The notes under the pieces were generated by a model. The model made no database searches. It worked only from the letters and a program-made list of their open reading frames with translations, and was not told the DNA's origin. Below are positions 3,727-58,429 of a DNA stretch of 64,000 nucleotides, piece after piece; position 1 is the stretch's first letter; the number at the start of each line of letters is the position of its first letter. The stretch comes from Hymenobacter guriensis. Lineage in GTDB: Bacteria; Bacteroidota; Bacteroidia; Cytophagales; Hymenobacteraceae. The position numbers were made by a program, and so were the translations under genes. The stretch covers positions 372,001-436,000 of the forward strand of contig NZ_JADWYK010000001.1 of NCBI RefSeq assembly GCF_015773195.1. The letters are read 5' to 3'.

Positions 3727-5577
3727 ATGTTGCACCCTTACTCTCTCGGCATGGTCGCACGGCGTTTTGCCCTCGGCATGCTCGGTCTCACATTCGCTAC
3801 AGCGGCACAGGCACAGCTTGGAACCTATTCTTTTGGCACGACCACGCCTTCTACGGGCGACGAGGCTACTTATGCTGTAGATGCTCAGCCCACGAATGCT
3901 ACCTTCTCGCCTATTTCCCGCGGAACCGGTGTAACGCCTTCGGGCGCGGGCGGCACGTTCTCAGCTCTCGGCTGGACACTGGGTGCCACCCCCGATGCCA
4001 CTGACTATTTCTCCTTTTCTGTTACGCCCGCTGCTGATCATAAGCTGGACCTGACCAGCATCACGCTGGACGAGCGTCGTTCCGGAACTGGCATTGGGGA
4101 GTGGGTACTGCGTTCCAGCCTGGATAATTTTACGGCTGACCTCATCAAAGTAACCGTGCCGGATGAGACACTTGTTCGAAACAAGAAAATTGACCTGCCG
4201 GCCGCATTTATGGGCCTAACTTCTGCCGTGGAGTTCCGCTTCTACGGTTACAAAGCTGAAGCAGACGCGGGCACCTGGCGCCTTGACAACATTAAGGTTG
4301 ATGGCACGGTAACCGGCGGCGTGGTAACGCCCACCGCTCCAGTAATTTCCTTCGGCACGGCCGCTGTGACGGTGGAGGAAAACGTGGGCAAGGTGAACAT
4401 TCCGGTGAAGCTGAGCGCCGCCAGCACCCAGGAAATTACCGTGGATGTGGTAATTGCCACGCCCGCTGGCACGGCCACGTCTCCCGACGATTTCACCTTC
4501 ACGAAAACCAAAGTTACGTTCCCGGCCAACTCCACCGCTGAGAAGACCGTGGAAGTAACCATCGTGGACGACAACGTGCAGGAAGCCGCCGAAACCATCA
4601 TCCTCGGCCTGGAAAATGCTATGCCAGCTGATGGTGCTACTATTGCCTCAGGCACCAGCACCATCACCATTGCGGCCAATGATGTCCCAACGGTAATTTC
4701 GGTGACGCCGATTTCCACCCTGACGGTAAATGACGCCGCTGGCGTACCCGTTCAGAACGGCCAGATAGTAAAAGCTACGGGGGTTATCTATGGCCCCAAC
4801 CTGCGCACGGCTGGCGGCTACCAGTTTGCGCTGATTGATGCTACTGGTGGTATTGGTATTTTCTCCTCCGCCAACATTGGGGACCTCACGCTGGCCGAAG
4901 GCGACTCGGTAGATGTAATGGGGACCTTGGGGCAGTTCAACGGCCTAACCCAGATTACCGCTACGGCTATTGAACGGTTCCGCCAGAACGCTGCTCTGGT
5001 AGCCCCACGCGTGGTAACTGCCGTGGGTGAAGGCGAGGAGTCGGAACTGATTAAACTCACTCCACTGATGCTGGCAGATGCTTCCAAATGGCCTACGGCT
5101 GCCACCACGGCTTCCGGCGTCAACGTAGATGCCAAGGATGCCGCCGGCAACACGTTCCAGCTCCGTATTACCAAGGCTAGCGGCCTGTACACCATGCCTG
5201 CTCCCACCGGCGCCTTCACGGTAACTGGCCTAGGCGGTCAGTTCGACAGCGCTACGCCGTTTGATACGGGCTACCAGATTTTCCCCCGCAGCATGGCTGA
5301 CATCGTGTCCATCGAAACGGCCAACCGCGAGCCAGCCTTCGGCCGCACGGTGCAGCTCTACCCCAACCCTGCCGCCAACCAACTGACCCTGAAGTTGGGC
5401 ACGGTTGGTCGCGGTGCTACGGTGGAAGTGCTGAGCCTGCTGGGCCAGCGCATCAGCCGCACCACGGCTACTGGCACTCAGGCTGAGCTGAACGTAGCTG
5501 CCCTGCAGCGCGGCACTTACCTGGTGCGCATCACCACCAACGAAGGCTCGGTAACGCGTCGTTTCGTGAAGCAATAA
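3727..5577 (+). CDS. Secreted protein with Calx-beta domain and T9SS C-terminal sorting domain
   Basis: 616 residues from the ATG at 3727. A signal peptide of about 30 residues ends in ATAAQAQ. Residues 31-195 form a beta-rich domain with PEP-CTERM-like SITLDERRSG and WRLDNIKVDG motifs. A Calx-beta domain (about 205-320; VTVEENVGKVNIPVKLS, EKTVEVTIVDD) follows. Next comes an OB-fold-like segment (about 322-430) like those in Bacteroidota extracellular nuclease-type proteins. The end (about 535-616; QLYPNPAANQLTL ... GTYLVRI ... RRFVKQ) is a type A T9SS sorting domain. It should be exported by Sec, moved through T9SS and attached to or released from the cell surface. No catalytic domain is recognisable. 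Confidence 0.85.
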   Translation: MLHPYSLGMVARRFALGMLGLTFATAAQAQLGTYSFGTTTPSTGDEATYAVDAQPTNATFSPISRGTGVTPSGAGGTFSALGWTLGATPDATDYFSFSVTPAADHKLDLTSITLDERRSGTGIGEWVLRSSLDNFTADLIKVTVPDETLVRNKKIDLPAAFMGLTSAVEFRFYGYKAEADAGTWRLDNIKVDGTVTGGVVTPTAPVISFGTAAVTVEENVGKVNIPVKLSAASTQEITVDVVIATPAGTATSPDDFTFTKTKVTFPANSTAEKTVEVTIVDDNVQEAAETIILGLENAMPADGATIASGTSTITIAANDVPTVISVTPISTLTVNDAAGVPVQNGQIVKATGVIYGPNLRTAGGYQFALIDATGGIGIFSSANIGDLTLAEGDSVDVMGTLGQFNGLTQITATAIERFRQNAALVAPRVVTAVGEGEESELIKLTPLMLADASKWPTAATTASGVNVDAKDAAGNTFQLRITKASGLYTMPAPTGAFTVTGLGGQFDSATPFDTGYQIFPRSMADIVSIETANREPAFGRTVQLYPNPAANQLTLKLGTVGRGATVEVLSLLGQRISRTTATGTQAELNVAALQRGTYLVRITTNEGSVTRRFVKQ

Positions 5578-35300: not shown

Positions 35301-35436
35301 AAGAGAAGCTGGTTAAGAGGTGCTGCAAGAACCCGAAAGTAACGCCTGAGTTGCAGCCTTGCGCATTTTACCGCCGCAGGGCAGAGCTAAAACCAGCGCA
35401 AAAGCCTACCTTCCCTCTACCCTATTCGCTACCGCC

Positions 35437-35727
35437 ATGGCCATCGAATACATCCGCTACCGCATCAGCACTGAGCAGCAGCCTGCTTTCGTGGAAGCCA
35501 TCCGCCAGGCCAACCAGCTCCTGGCCGCCGCACCCGACTGCCTGATCTACCAGCTCGCCCATTGCGAGGAAGACCCAGAATTGTTCATCTGGCGCATCGA
35601 GTGGACTTCGGTAGAGCGCCACCTCCAGGGTTTCCGCAAAAGCGCGGAGTTTGGGGCGTTTTTTCAATTGGTGAAGCCGTTTTACCAGAGTATCCAGGAA
35701 ATGAACCACTATGCGGTGGTGGAGTAG
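35437..35727 (+). CDS. ABM-domain protein (antibiotic biosynthesis monooxygenase-like)
   Basis: 96 residues from ATG 35437 (MAIEYIRYRIS). One ferredoxin-like ABM fold: the first strand IEYIRYRI, a helix with FVEAIRQANQLL, the CLIYQLAHCEEDPELFIWRIEW hairpin and a terminal FFQLVKPFYQSIQEM helix. Such proteins act as cofactor-free monooxygenases on quinols, or simply as small dimeric stress proteins. The substrate cannot be told. The frame is open upstream of this ATG but without similarity. Confidence 0.82.
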   Translation: MAIEYIRYRISTEQQPAFVEAIRQANQLLAAAPDCLIYQLAHCEEDPELFIWRIEWTSVERHLQGFRKSAEFGAFFQLVKPFYQSIQEMNHYAVVE

Positions 35728-35755
35728 CGCCTGCTGATACTCATTTGTAATATCT

Positions 35756-36412
35756 ATGGCCGAAATCAATTTTCAACTGCAGAATCTCTTTGTCCAGCAC
35801 GACATACGGGTTATTCCCTTGGAAAACAAAGCGTTGCTGATGACTAAGCAACCCGCACTTATCCAGAGCCGAGTCACCCAGCAACAGCATCCGAATGGTG
35901 CTACTTCCCGGCTTGACGTCCAGATTACCCTCGGAAACCGCACCATCATAGAATGCTTCGGCGACATTGGAGAGACTCTCGAAGCTGCAACACAAAATAA
36001 CCTGCGGAATTTTGCTCACAACAGCCTACACGTACTCATTAATGCTCTTCAGGATAAGGATGAGGATGAACAAATCAGTATAGAGCGGTGGCAAATCGGT
36101 ACGCAAAGGTGGAAAGTGTACAGTGGAAATTATGGCATCAAATCAACTGTCGGCAAGAGTGTACCAATTCCTGAAAATCTGTATGTTCGAATAGAGAGTA
36201 TTATTCAGTCACTGTCTCTCAAGGAAGATTATCACTGGTTCCGTTTTTTCATCTCCTGCTCAAATAAACAGATTTCAAATATCGAATTTCTGGTTGATAA
36301 TGAAGTGTATCCCGAAGCCCAGCAGGAATTAGCTACTCTTGATTGGTACATAACGCCCGATTTTTACAGCATCAGACTTTTTATGATTCTACAGAGAGAA
36401 GCGCATATTTGA
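35756..36412 (+). CDS. DUF6348-like protein of unknown function
   Basis: 218 residues, cytoplasmic. The pattern (early QNLFVQHDI, SRLDVQITLGNRTIIECFGDIG, then NNLRNFAHNSLHVLINAL) is what I remember of the DUF6348 family; this needs a profile search. Those proteins are found beside polymorphic toxins and in stand-alone form, and immunity has been suggested but not shown. GC is much lower than in the flanking genes. It starts 28 nt after the ABM gene and is followed 5 nt later by an AT-rich lipoprotein gene. Confidence 0.6.
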   Translation: MAEINFQLQNLFVQHDIRVIPLENKALLMTKQPALIQSRVTQQQHPNGATSRLDVQITLGNRTIIECFGDIGETLEAATQNNLRNFAHNSLHVLINALQDKDEDEQISIERWQIGTQRWKVYSGNYGIKSTVGKSVPIPENLYVRIESIIQSLSLKEDYHWFRFFISCSNKQISNIEFLVDNEVYPEAQQELATLDWYITPDFYSIRLFMILQREAHI

Positions 36413-36417
36413 AACAT

Positions 36418-36963
36418 ATGAAAACCCAAACTATTATTACACTCGCTATTTCTTGCTTATTGCTGACTGACTGCGTGGCCATCAGCAAGCGAAAATCTTG
36501 GATGTGGCGCAAGTCGAATCCAGATACTACTTCTACACCTTACGTGAGTTTTATTGAAATAAACCTACTCAAAGAAGTTATCTGGGTTCCAACACCAATT
36601 ATTGCGACAGAAGTCAACTCCTCTCCTGATTATTTGCTTGACATCGACTTTCACACGGAGACAAAAAATGAGTATCATAAACTCGACTCAATACGCTATA
36701 AAATTATTGCATCGGATAATCGAACAATTAACGAAGGAGTATTACCTATCAAAAATGGTGAGCTTAGTATCCGTTCATATTCGCCTGGTATTTATCGGGC
36801 TCAATGCACAACGAAACCCAGCATACGCCTAGGCAAACAGAAACAGGCACTCAATGGCACTTTTACTATCTACGCCACTGGCAGCAACGGCCAGCCAAAA
36901 TCCATTTATATCAATAACATTATCCTAAACTATTACAAGCCTAAAATTATAAGCTTCTTTTAG
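36418..36963 (+). CDS. AT-rich lipoprotein of unknown function
   Basis: 181 residues from ATG 36418. The N-terminal signal with SCLLLTDC (Cys at about 17) looks like a lipobox. The mature part has a single beta-sandwich look (LLDIDFHTETKNEYHKLDS, then SIRSYSPGIYRAQCT, and a terminal TFTIYATGSNG). No family recognised. Its GC content is very low for this genome: 17 of 60 bases at 36661-36720. It follows the DUF6348-like gene by 5 nt, so the two were probably acquired together. Confidence 0.65.
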   Translation: MKTQTIITLAISCLLLTDCVAISKRKSWMWRKSNPDTTSTPYVSFIEINLLKEVIWVPTPIIATEVNSSPDYLLDIDFHTETKNEYHKLDSIRYKIIASDNRTINEGVLPIKNGELSIRSYSPGIYRAQCTTKPSIRLGKQKQALNGTFTIYATGSNGQPKSIYINNIILNYYKPKIISFF

Positions 36964-37035
36964 CTTCCCCGCACTGCATAACCCCGCCCCCGCCCCGCTC
37001 GTCTAACCGCCTAGTTCTTACTTAGCCGCTGCTGC

Positions 37036-38907: not shown

Positions 38908-39282
38908 ATGGGCATGTTCGGTTACTACTTTTATTTCAGAACTAATCCTTCTCAATCAGAAGTTATCCACAGACTACAACTACAGTTTCCAGAACCACTA
39001 CTTATAAATCAGGAAACCGCCGAAAGCGTTGAAGTCAGGGACCCATCCAATAAAAACCACCCCGTTTGGTTGTCTTGGGACGCCGAACGTTTCCCGCCGT
39101 TGACACCGGAATTTCTTGGCGATGCACCAGAAATGGACATACTTGATGTATTGCCTTTCCCTGATTTACTTCAGGAAATTAGTATCCGCTCTCCTATATT
39201 CTTCCATTCTGGACCAGACAAACTGATAAACGCTATCAGGCAAATACTACAAGATCTTGGAGGTAAAACCGAGCAAATCTGA
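38908..39282 (+). CDS. Small AT-rich protein of unknown function
   Basis: 124 residues, soluble. Starts MGMFGYYFYFRTNPSQSEVIHRLQ. A Pro/Asp-rich middle (WDAERFPPLTPEFLGDAPEMDILDVLPFPDLL is split here over two turns) is followed by a terminal helix. No family recognised. Base composition is visibly lower in GC than the ABC exporter gene before it (23 of 60 bases at 38941-39000), so it may be a later arrival. It starts 60 nt after the exporter stop. Confidence 0.55.
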   Translation: MGMFGYYFYFRTNPSQSEVIHRLQLQFPEPLLINQETAESVEVRDPSNKNHPVWLSWDAERFPPLTPEFLGDAPEMDILDVLPFPDLLQEISIRSPIFFHSGPDKLINAIRQILQDLGGKTEQI

Positions 39283-39502
39283 TAGTTTATTAATTTCACC
39301 CTTGCTGGCTCTCAACTGGCGCGAGTTTAGGCGCAGCCGTACCTCGTGCCCGCCTAACGTGGAGCTTGCAGCCCCACTGTCGCAAGTGCCCCGCTTATTG
39401 TCGGAGTAGCACCGCATAGCGGGGCGGTTTTAGTGGCATTTTTGTAGCAGTTCGGAAGGCCAGACGGCCCCGGTTTACACCCAGTCAAAAACCGCTGCTA
39501 CC

Positions 39503-39940: not shown

Positions 39941-40232
39941 GGGCAACTCCAATAGACGAGGGCGTGTGTTACTGCCGCAAACCAAACCCGCGAAACTATT
40001 TTCTATCCTATCCACTTACCTAACCTCTCAAATATACAAGCCGCGAAAAAGCGAAGCCCACGAACCTCTAGCCAACCTATATGCCAACGGCTTGCGCAGT
40101 CACAGCCCCTGGTTGCCCGGCGGCTGTTGCATGTCTGGCAGTCGGTACTTCGTTGCTGAGTGTTCAGCAGGTATTTAAAGGCCGAACAACCTCTACACGC
40201 ATTGCCTGTTGTAGCTGAAACCGCCTTAGCCT

Positions 40233-55265: not shown

Positions 55266-56180
55266 CTACCGCTTCAGAATGGTCTGGTACTTGGCCGCGT
55301 TGGTAGGGTCTACCTCGTTGAGCATGGTCACCACGGCTTCTTTCTGGCTTTGCTCGGGACTGGTCCGGAACACGTTGGCAATTTCATCGGCTTTCGACTC
55401 GAAGAAGGCCCGCACGATAAGCGTACCGGGCCGCCGCACTGCTGCCTGCTGAATGCCCGCCAGCCCCGTCTGGATGCTGGCGCGGGCGTCGTTGGGCTTT
55501 TCCACGAAGATGTCCAGGCCCTGGCGGTAGTAGGCATACAGCGCCGAGCGGCAGTCTTTCAGCTGTGGGTCCTGCAGGTTGTTGAGCAGCCAGTAGCGGT
55601 TGCGCGACTCCCCATCCTTCCAGCCCTTGTCGTTTTCCAGGGTCTGGCTGGCCGCGTTGTTCACGATACGCTGGGCCAGGTCGTAGTAGGGCGAGCCGCC
55701 CATGGGCGCAAACGTGTCGTGGTCCAGCCCGATCATCAGGTAAGCATAAAAGCTCAGCAGGGACGACAGGTTGGAAGTAAACGACGTTTCGGAGTAGTCG
55801 AGCGGGTTTTGGGGCGAGTAGTTGAACACCCACCCTTTATCGGAAAACGAGAAAACGTTGGTTTCGTAGCTGGTGCCGTACACCGGGCGCGTGCTCACCA
55901 GCACGGCCGTGGCCTGGTAGGTGCCCGCCTGTGGCACGCTGTTGATGCCAATGTAGAGCTTGCAGCGGATGCGCTCCTCAGGCCGGTAGGTTTCGTTCGT
56001 CCAGCGGCGCGTGTTTAGGAACTGGGTAATGTCTTTCTGCATCTGCGTGACCAACTGCCGGTCGGCAATGTTCACGTTTTCGGTGTTGACAGTGACCTCG
56101 CAGTTCAGCTCCTGGGCCGCGGCCAGCTGGGGCAGCGCACTCAGGAAACTCAGCAAACAAATCAGCAAATATTTACGCAT
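55266..56180 (-). CDS. porD: DUF4835 family protein, PorD-like (type IX secretion-associated)
   Basis: 304 residues with a signal peptide (LLICLLSFLSALPQLAAAQ). The mature part opens with ELNCEVTVNTENVN and contains TRRWTNETYRPEERIRC and the conserved FYAYLMIGLDHDTFAPMGGSPYYDLAQRIV block (about 145-175). This is DUF4835, which I recall is named PorD in F. johnsoniae; a profile search should confirm. The place between coaB and recN is the normal one in Bacteroidota. It overlaps the coaB stop by 8 nt, so the two are coupled. Confidence 0.85.
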   Translation of the reverse strand: MRKYLLICLLSFLSALPQLAAAQELNCEVTVNTENVNIADRQLVTQMQKDITQFLNTRRWTNETYRPEERIRCKLYIGINSVPQAGTYQATAVLVSTRPVYGTSYETNVFSFSDKGWVFNYSPQNPLDYSETSFTSNLSSLLSFYAYLMIGLDHDTFAPMGGSPYYDLAQRIVNNAASQTLENDKGWKDGESRNRYWLLNNLQDPQLKDCRSALYAYYRQGLDIFVEKPNDARASIQTGLAGIQQAAVRRPGTLIVRAFFESKADEIANVFRTSPEQSQKEAVVTMLNEVDPTNAAKYQTILKR

Positions 56181-56823
56181 GGGGCGAAATTCGGGTCAGC
56201 ACGGCCTGCACGATGTCGTGGGCCACGGCGGCTTTGGGTTTCAGCCCGAAGATAGTCTTTTGCCCGTCGGCGGCCAGCAAGGTCACTTTGTTGGTGTCGT
56301 GCTGGAAACCAGCGCCGGCGTCGCGCAGGGAGTTCAGCACCACCAAGTCGAAGTTCTTGCGGCGCAGCTTGCCCAAGGCGTGTTCTTCTTCGTGCTCGGT
56401 TTCCAACGCAAAACCCACGGAAAATTGTTCGGGCCGCTTGGTTTTTCCCAGCGTGGCGGCAATGTCCACGTTCTTCACCAGCTCCAGCGTGAGCGTGTCG
56501 CCGGACTTCTTGATTTTCTCCGGAGCCACAGTAGCCGGCCGGTAGTCGGCCACGGCGGCGGCAAAAACCCACACATCGGCGGTGGGTGCCTCGGCCGAGG
56601 CGGCGGCATACATTTCGGCAGCCGTTTGCACGCGCATTGTGCGTATGCGCGGGTCCGTGGGGTCAGGCAGGTTAGTGGGGCCGCTGATGAGCGTCACGTC
56701 GGCGCCAGCGGCCGCAAAGGCTTCGGCCAGTGCGTAGCCCATTTTGCCGGTGCTGTGGTTGCCGATGAAGCGTACCGGGTCCAGCGGTTCGTAGGTAGGG
56801 CCGGCGGTGAGAAGAACGCGCAT
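56173..56823 (-). CDS. coaB: Phosphopantothenate-cysteine ligase domain (CoaB), as a separate gene
   Basis: 216 residues from ATG 56823 (MRVLLTAGPTYEPLDPVRFIGN). It joins 4'-phosphopantothenate and cysteine in CoA synthesis. Complete CoaB motifs: GNHSTGKMG, AAAVADYRP, KIKKS, LVKNVDI and GFALETE. CoaB is normally the second half of a fused CoaBC. An in-frame ATG at 56850 would add MFFTAILKN from AT-rich sequence; I prefer 56823, where GC-rich coding sequence begins. An AT-rich foreign gene separates it from coaC. Confidence 0.93.
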   Translation of the reverse strand: MRVLLTAGPTYEPLDPVRFIGNHSTGKMGYALAEAFAAAGADVTLISGPTNLPDPTDPRIRTMRVQTAAEMYAAASAEAPTADVWVFAAAVADYRPATVAPEKIKKSGDTLTLELVKNVDIAATLGKTKRPEQFSVGFALETEHEEEHALGKLRRKNFDLVVLNSLRDAGAGFQHDTNKVTLLAADGQKTIFGLKPKAAVAHDIVQAVLTRISPHA

Positions 56824-56854
56824 GTTTTTTAATATAGCTGTAAAGAACAAGCAG

Positions 56855-57343
56855 TTATACGTACTTTAAACCAAGCTCATTTATATCAATATTAAATTTT
56901 TTCCACTGCTTTAAATCTATAGAATCGCCATTAATTTCAGTTATCCAATTAATACCAGGAACTATGATTGTTTTCTCTACTGTGCGCCTTCTATAACTAC
57001 CAGCACCAGGATTCATCATCTGAAATTCAATGATTCTATTTTTCAAATATATATTCTGATAGAGAATAGTTTGAGTTTGCCATGCGAATACCGCCATGAT
57101 ACCTTTAACAAAAGACATAGCACATATCCATAAGACAAAAAGAAAAAAAGAAAGCTTGAGTTTATATACAAGCTGATTATCTAGCATGTATAAAAAAAGG
57201 AAAGCACTTAGGAGAGTGACACTTAATACCCAAGTAGCAAATCGTATTTCAAGCCCAGTAAATACATTCAAAAGCAGAATTATAAATAAAATAAAAGCAC
57301 ATGCCCAAATAATTTTTTCAAATGCCGTTTCTGATAAATTCAT
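56855..57343 (-). CDS. AT-rich orphan membrane protein inserted between coaC and coaB
   Basis: 162 residues with three predicted transmembrane helices (about 11-31, 36-55, 63-88). A C-terminal soluble domain of about 75 residues contains YRRRTVEKTIIVPGINWITEI. No family recognised. GC is far below the neighbours (16 of 60 bases at 57121-57180, against 41 of 60 at 57541-57600). Same strand as the flanking coa genes, 32 nt after the coaC stop and 31 nt before the coaB ATG. It looks like a foreign gene placed exactly at the domain border. No transposase or clear target duplication is visible. Confidence 0.8.
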   Translation of the reverse strand: MNLSETAFEKIIWACAFILFIILLLNVFTGLEIRFATWVLSVTLLSAFLFLYMLDNQLVYKLKLSFFLFVLWICAMSFVKGIMAVFAWQTQTILYQNIYLKNRIIEFQMMNPGAGSYRRRTVEKTIIVPGINWITEINGDSIDLKQWKKFNIDINELGLKYV

Positions 57344-57375
57344 TTGAGTAGCAGTATAAACTAACGATAATATAC

Positions 57376-57933
57376 CTACTTACGCAATAAAAATGCTTCC
57401 AACTCCACCACAATCTGCTCCGGCTCCTGCATGCGGCCGGGTCCTTCGAGGCCGCTGGCTAGTTCCCCAGCGGGTGAGTCGAAGATGTAGTTACCATAGG
57501 AGCGCAGCCGGCGCAGGTTTTCCTGGGTGGCCGGGTGCTGGTACATATCCAGGTCCATGGCCGGGGCCAGCAGCACGGGGCAGCGGGCCGAGAGGTACAC
57601 GGCCGCCAGCAGTGAAGGGCAGTGGCCTTGCGCCAGCTGGGCCAGCGTGTTGGCCGAGGCGGGCGCAATCAGCAGGGCATCGGCCCAGAGGCCCAGGGCC
57701 ACGTGGTTGTGCCACTCCCCGGTGGCTTCGCTTTTCAGAAAGCCCGTGAGAACCGGCTTTTTGGAAAGCGTACTGAGTGTAAGGGGCGTAATAAAGGCCG
57801 CAGCCGAGGTAGTCAGGATTACCTGTACCTCGGCTCCGGCCTTCACGAGCAGCCGCACCAGGGCGGCACTCTTATACGCGGCGATGCTCCCGCACACGCC
57901 CAGCAAAATCTTCCGACCGTGCAGCGACGACAT
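57376..57933 (-). CDS. coaC: Phosphopantothenoylcysteine decarboxylase domain (CoaC), as a separate gene
   Basis: 185 residues, flavin-dependent, converting 4'-phosphopantothenoylcysteine to phosphopantetheine. Motifs: GSIAAYKSAALVRLL, the active-site His in EWHNHVALG, IAPASANTLAQLAQG (FMN), and the PAMDLDMYQHPA loop. It ends after VVELEAFLLRK with its own stop, at the point where fused CoaBC proteins continue into CoaB. The last codons are unusually AT-rich, suggesting that the border of the AT-rich insert lies at about 57390. Starts 26 nt after the rpoZ stop. Confidence 0.94.
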   Translation of the reverse strand: MSSLHGRKILLGVCGSIAAYKSAALVRLLVKAGAEVQVILTTSAAAFITPLTLSTLSKKPVLTGFLKSEATGEWHNHVALGLWADALLIAPASANTLAQLAQGHCPSLLAAVYLSARCPVLLAPAMDLDMYQHPATQENLRRLRSYGNYIFDSPAGELASGLEGPGRMQEPEQIVVELEAFLLRK

Positions 57934-57959: not shown

Positions 57960-58292
57960 TTATTCGGCGGCGGGCTCTTCAGCGGCCGGCGTGCGGAAGT
58001 GAATTTTTCCTTCCAGAAACTCTTCTACGGCCAGGTTGGTGGGCTTGGGCAGCCGCTCGTAGTGCTTGCTGATTTCGATCTGCTCGCGGTTTTCGAACAC
58101 TTCCTCCAGGTTGTCGACCGTAGTAGCAAACTCGGCCAGTTTGCCGTTCAGCTCCTCTTTCAGCTTCACCGAAATCTGGTTGGCGCGCTTGGAGATGATG
58201 GCAATGCTTTCGTACACGTTGCCGGTTTCGTGGGTGAAATCCGACATGTTGCGCGTCACGATGGAAGCAGGTACGTTGTTCGGGCTTTTCAT
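57960..58292 (-). CDS. rpoZ: RNA polymerase omega subunit (RpoZ/RpoK-like)
   Basis: 110 residues from ATG 58292 (MKSPNNVPASIVTRNMSDFT). Helix pattern GNVYESIAIISKRANQISVKLKEEL matches the omega/Rpb6 core; the C-terminal tail LAVEEFLEGKIHF is the Bacteroidota form. Omega helps assembly and stability of RNA polymerase. Between bamD and coaC on the same strand, as in other Bacteroidota. The frame is open upstream of this ATG without similarity. Confidence 0.9.
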   Translation of the reverse strand: MKSPNNVPASIVTRNMSDFTHETGNVYESIAIISKRANQISVKLKEELNGKLAEFATTVDNLEEVFENREQIEISKHYERLPKPTNLAVEEFLEGKIHFRTPAAEEPAAE

Positions 58293-58429
58293 CTTATCTA
58301 ATGTGTTGGAGGTGCAAAATGTGAAAAGAATGTGACGAACAGGCTGCGGAATATAAGGAAAAAGGAAAGCCACCCGAGTGGTGACTACTCATTTCTCACC
58401 TTATACACATTGCAACCACATTCCGCCCA

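Follow-up and report, generated by a model that had tools for sequence, protein, structure and literature searches.

The gene for a 162-aa membrane protein between coaC and coaB of Hymenobacter guriensis is very probably a lone, horizontally acquired gene lying in an intercistronic gap that already existed. Within the window (the whole 64,000-nucleotide stretch that was analysed) the operon runs bamD, rpoZ, coaC, the 162-aa gene, coaB, porD and recN, all on the minus strand, with an lptA-like gene first and fabI last in the wider arrangement. Except for coaB and coaC, these names are ones we assume from the conserved operon order. The features of the locus are as follows.

57960..58328, minus strand: rpoZ-like gene, upstream; start uncertain, ORF open to 58373
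57376..57933, minus strand: coaC (phosphopantothenoylcysteine decarboxylase), 185 aa; Flavoprotein PF02441, E 1.1e-32
56824..57388, minus strand: probably foreign segment in place of the ordinary gap (128 bp in G037); borders by comparison with G037, G092, G076 and G075; GC 0.30
56855..57343, minus strand: gene for the 162-aa protein, with three membrane helices and a five-stranded domain (residues 88-162) that is probably periplasmic
56173..56823, minus strand: coaB (phosphopantothenate-cysteine ligase), 216 aa from the ATG at 56823; DFP PF04127, E 2.7e-70
55266..56180, minus strand: gene we take to be porD/DUF4835-like; 8-bp overlap with the coaB end

The Pfam matches of coaC and coaB spanned nearly the whole domains and lengths, in agreement with the earlier note on this DNA, which had described two complete enzyme halves with coaB starting at its own ATG. 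The last four codons and the stop of coaC were unlike those of the aligned relatives. The rpoZ-like gene was observed directly upstream of coaC in 117 of 119 Hymenobacter loci (those where it could be placed), and the porD/DUF4835-like gene directly downstream of coaB in all 119. An AT-rich gene for a three-helix membrane protein, on the same strand between the two enzyme genes, had also been described and proved real in the ORF calls, the predicted helices and the GC content, which was 0.30 for the coaC-coaB gap compared with 0.58 for the window. GC3 was 0.26 for the 162-aa gene, compared with 0.72-0.83 for the seven operon genes measured. Spacers of 32 bp and 31 bp separate the gene from the coaC stop and the coaB ATG, respectively. 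The gene is the only ORF of at least 60 aa lying wholly within the segment 56824-57388, and it is more than a chance ORF, judging from its relatives, which make up a conserved family.

The earlier note had further proposed that insertion of this gene split a fused CoaBC, and had suggested looking at coaBC in related Hymenobacter genomes. No fusions were found there; instead we observed the separate coaB and coaC that the note itself had named as contradicting its proposal. coaC was present in all 120 Hymenobacter genomes searched, with an open frame of 184-274 aa in 119 (in the other, G097, coaC is broken over two contigs, and this genome was left out of the gap counts). coaB was a separate gene in each of the 119 loci read, a frame of fusion length was observed in none, and 114 had a coaC-coaB gap of 301 bp or less. 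Across the family, every genome that could be assessed, 203 in all, had coaC as a short frame of its own, G097 being the one that could not. In the five further genera none of the 84 genomes had a coaC long enough for a fusion; coaB was also placed in 40 of these and was separate in all 40, and for the remaining 44 the split is read from the length of the coaC frame. Matches were observed in 86 of the 98 genomes of the order sample, seven of them in Hymenobacter and the other 79 outside the family. Fused genes were found in 77 of these 79: 75 had one frame of at least 398 aa, and two (G251 and G289) were counted as fused from a frame that reads on into coaB before the contig ends. The only split loci outside the family, with gaps of 6 and 14 bp, were those of G218 and G234, the sole sampled members of family f16.

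These comparisons indicate that the coaC/coaB split predates the insertion. That in this strain the insertion itself broke a fused coaBC, the domain border tolerating it, would fit the way homology to relatives breaks off no more than a few codons from the end of coaC and picks up again at the ATG of coaB. Set against the separate genes of Hymenobacter and the other genera, and against relatives that are split and free of cargo (G037 and G102), it has almost no probability in our estimation. A base error splitting a fused frame was also considered and was ruled out, the split being family-wide.

The sister genera suggest how the split arose. In genera g2, g3, g4 and g6 (37 sampled loci: L194-L223, L227-L233) the coaC stop falls within or close to the linker codons and coaB follows in a different frame; the spacing to the coaB reference start is 4 bp in 36 loci and 20 in L209. 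Within the coaB frame, all 37 loci had an ATG, GTG or TTG (mostly GTG or TTG) 4-8 codons upstream of the coaB reference start, compared with 0/37 and 0/37 for the other two frames. If this upstream codon is the start, coaC and coaB of these genera would overlap out of frame, an arrangement that looks like coupled genes after a frame change in the linker. Three loci of one further genus, g5, had gaps of 68, 68 and 156 bp.

The coaC of the overlapping loci ended in GTT and a stop in 32 of the 37 (GTT TAA in 27, GTT TAG in 4, GTT TGA in 1), a pattern that could be taken to mean that the sister genera still make one CoaBC via +1 ribosomal frameshifting at the coaC stop, which Hymenobacter has lost. 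However, the stop coincides with the L/F-K-G linker codons of coaB and arises when these conserved codons are translated in the other frame. The start codon is also kept in the coaB frame in every locus despite its shifting position, as expected of ordinary overlapping genes, and because of this we rate a programmed frameshift as very unlikely.

In Hymenobacter the coaC-coaB gap had a median of 114 bp (119 loci). It was not uniform; among the 114 cargo-free loci it ranged from 3 to 301 bp, with 101 loci at 20-160 bp and four at only 3-8 bp. Hairpin-repeat words were counted in seven operon gaps (n=109 to 119, loci with a contig end or without a located neighbour being dropped) with hand-picked words that undercount other hairpin types. 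Their share was highest in the coaC-coaB gap (36/119), followed by rpoZ-coaC (29/117), porD-recN (14/114), recN-fabI (14/109) and lptA-bamD (2/113); the other two gaps had none (0/117, 0/119). Strong hairpin repeats of several unlike types were observed in the coaC-coaB and rpoZ-coaC gaps of many Hymenobacter loci (e.g. L042, L044, L062, L103), and these are possibly MITE- or REP-like and possibly transcript-stabilising. Twenty-three operon gaps were at least 350 bp long, 18 of which held an ORF of at least 70 aa. The longest ORF was on the operon strand in 17 of the 18, suggesting that cargo is favoured or tolerated in the operon direction; the exception was L126, where the ORF runs in from the porD end.

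A coaC-coaB gap of at least 500 bp containing a gene was observed in 5 of the 119 Hymenobacter loci, with four unrelated kinds of cargo, all on the operon strand:

Window: 162 aa
G092: 227 aa; SH3_3 match below its cut-off
G076 and G075: the same 147-aa membrane protein in both
G111: DUF4844 (PF16133), E 6.6e-23

The 147-aa cargo is under constraint, since dN between G076 and G075 was 0.031 and dS was 0.192, a ratio of about one sixth. The closest relative seen was G092 (coaC 98% and coaB 98% identical), and its cargo is unrelated to that of the window.

The borders of the segment were placed by comparison with relatives. DNA homology to G037 extends through the window as far as 56824 and is found again from 57389 on. 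Homology on the coaC side restarts at 57389 for G037, at 57398 for G092 and at 57397 for G076 and G075, and on the coaB side it ends at 56823-56824 in the same four. The segment that replaces the gap is thus 565 bp (about 56824-57388) with one gene; alignment to the empty site, which the earlier note had called for, agrees closely with the 56824-57390 it had given. In close relatives the empty site is a gap of 128 bp in G037, the next closest after G092, and 106 bp in G102, and in both it contains an inverted repeat like TCATGCTGAGC. The two borders were not joined by any repeat, direct or inverted, and no integrase or transposase was found within the segment; the signs of a transposon (terminal inverted repeats, target duplication, recombinase) were likewise absent. 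The eight flanking operon genes keep an identity of 0.93-0.97 to G092, so nothing points to a long, divergent tract from a donor. Together with GC and GC3, the comparison with relatives upholds the reading of an acquired AT-rich gene with sharp borders and in operon direction.

One might instead see the middle gene as a coa operon gene of long standing, passed down vertically and lost in most relatives, and its direction and short spacers would suit such a history. Its GC3 departs strongly from that of the operon genes, matches to it occur in 8 of the 119 other genus genomes (single-sequence search, E 0.01 or better), each far from coaC or on another contig, and the nearest relative carries an unrelated gene at the same place; on these grounds vertical inheritance is highly improbable.

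The site itself is probably one of several and not special. Over about 63 kb, starting near position 824, small genes set the window apart from G092 at five places:

2400-2513: 106-aa ORF in G092
35308-35429: 274-aa ORF in G092
35727-36977: different genes in each
Opposite 39372-39383: two-gene insert in G092 (L246; 78 and 122 aa)
coaC-coaB gap: unrelated cargo in each

A diverged block inside a gene (4757-5238) and an unlike stretch (39948-40231, 284 versus 267 bp) were left out of this count. The two-gene insert of G092 presumably resembles a DUF433/PIN-like toxin-antitoxin pair. Further lone genes of low GC (0.43) were observed in the window at 35756-36412 and 38908-39282, and opposite the former G092 has other genes, among them one we take to be an IS630-like transposase. 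Four unrelated kinds of cargo at one place, and the top share of hairpin words among the seven gaps, would be expected if the coaC-coaB gap were a special insertion hotspot with its own targeting. This is unlikely, however, as a gene occurs about as often in porD-recN (5/114 loci) and recN-fabI (6/109), the repeat words are also frequent in rpoZ-coaC, and G092 differs at the other places listed.

The AlphaFold2 model of the 162-aa protein (mean pLDDT 86) predicts helices at residues 3-28, 36-56 and 62-85 and strands at 89-97, 103-113, 116-128, 131-136 and 147-153; the C-terminal domain modelled alone reached a pLDDT of 91.6. Among 22 aligned members of the family, W88, Q108 and R120 are invariant and T90 and W147 nearly so. 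This alignment (A2) leaves out L037/L176 (partial frame), L171 (long extension), L173-L175, L177-L184 and L193, and alignment A3 further omits L191 and L172. The mean net charge of the 22 members was +1.2 for the N-terminus and +2.9 for the second loop, compared with -0.6 for the loop before it, and by the positive-inside rule these charges place the five-stranded domain probably in the periplasm. This placement is weakened by the N-terminus of the window protein, which carries -1, and by the family C-terminal domain, which averages +2.7.

A profile search of the protein, which the earlier note had recommended, gave no Pfam or NCBIfam identity and led instead to an uncharacterised family whose members are scattered over Bacteroidota. 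The search brought up no close orthologue; the best near-full-length relative within the genus was 46% identical. Members were observed in 25 of 204 Hymenobacteraceae genomes (profile search, own genome included) and in 10 of 395 phylum genomes, also with its own included, five strong ones being in a single genus. This genus is probably Flavobacterium, because L187 and the F. frigidimaris locus L263 share the same protein over the part compared. Fourteen loci came up in a scan of named sequences, from Hymenobacter, Flavobacterium, Foetidibacter, other Cytophagales, Sphingobacteriales and metagenome bins. The sampled genus is Hymenobacter, a G062 stretch being 100% identical over 2130 bp to H. 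rigui.

The distribution of the family is patchy and its contexts are unrelated, with neighbours elsewhere that we take to be glycoside hydrolase-like, dprA-like, UspA-like and other genes. The Flavobacterium-type loci (L185-L189, L261, L263) share a fixed place between what are presumably BON-domain-like and UspA-like genes, a neighbourhood suggestive of a role in the envelope or in stress. The Hymenobacter loci L165-L168 carry a diverged family branch, beside genes that we assume to be dprA-like, merR-like and alaS-like. This branch is probably older in the genus, given its conserved place and milder GC bias.

Searches of Pfam, NCBIfam, PADLOC (phage defence) and PDB sequences gave no match to the window protein at E 1, and Pfam on all 22 members of A2 gave weak hits alone, each in one member. 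PHROGs gave one weak match (E 0.0052, residues 105-158, head maturation protease family). No relative was found in phages by tblastn at E 0.01 or in viral contigs with the single protein as query, and plasmids gave no match at E 0.01. No significant match to solved folds was found: the best Foldseek E was 0.36 for the whole model, and the C-terminal domain alone gave a best E of 0.48 and a best Z of 4.2. The three-helix part reached Z 8.7 to complex I chain 7qso_K, within the tool's range for common helical-bundle arrangements.

Taken in sequence, we propose that early in the family a frame change at the domain linker broke coaBC into overlapping coaC and coaB, a step read from present-day genomes rather than from a reconstructed tree. 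Comparison of the same genomes shows a gap in place of the overlap in Hymenobacter, where hairpin repeats are often present in it, and in the three loci of one sister genus. In this strain the gap is taken up by the 565-bp AT-rich segment with its one gene; in relatives it holds other genes or none. The 162-aa gene is probably read from the operon transcript, because the spacers before and behind it are so short. Its product would sit in the inner membrane and carry a small beta domain on the periplasmic side, and its topology and patchy distribution may point to an accessory envelope role apart from CoA synthesis. A more far-reaching account, possible but as a whole somewhat doubtful, is that early fission of coaBC in Hymenobacteraceae opened an intercistronic slot which Hymenobacter filled at least four times with foreign small genes, retained by riding on operon transcription, the 162-aa family being one of these and a periplasm-facing inner-membrane protein with an undescribed domain.

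Separate coaB and coaC are also found in streptococci and enterococci, and lone AT-rich acquired genes in intergenic gaps are a general kind. The window's gene resembles these in being a single gene of low GC with sharp borders, patchy distribution and no adjoining mobile element, but differs in sitting inside an operon with essential-pathway genes. The DUF4844 cargo of G111 is likewise small and alone, and it occupies the same gap in the same orientation, although it belongs to another protein family. According to one study, most prokaryotes have one fused coaBC gene, and CoaB of E. coli is active without CoaC, whereas mycobacterial CoaB is not (PMC7794376); the E. coli case makes function of a solo CoaB plausible. 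As in the bifunctional CoaBC (Dfp), both domains here are complete and coaC precedes coaB, in the operon order of the fused relatives of the order, but there are two genes throughout Hymenobacteraceae. Separate coaB and coaC are described for Mycoplasma iowae and M. fermentans NCTC10117 in another paper (PMC8721197). Those are two monofunctional genes as well; here, in contrast, the split is family-wide, the genes are neighbours and the stages run from overlap to gap to gap with cargo. We found no open-licence paper treating Hymenobacter with coaBC, phosphopantothenoylcysteine with gene fission, or Hymenobacter together with horizontal gene transfer, intergenic and operon, and nothing on split coaBC in Bacteroidota among the titles listed.

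The event itself, a lone acquired gene, looks ordinary for these genomes, and its place, a gap left by an old family-wide fission, looks informative. The series from fused to overlapping, to gapped, to gapped with cargo may illustrate how a bifunctional essential enzyme separates and how the gap then opens to foreign genes, and the locus draws attention to an uncharacterised membrane-protein family thinly spread in Bacteroidota.
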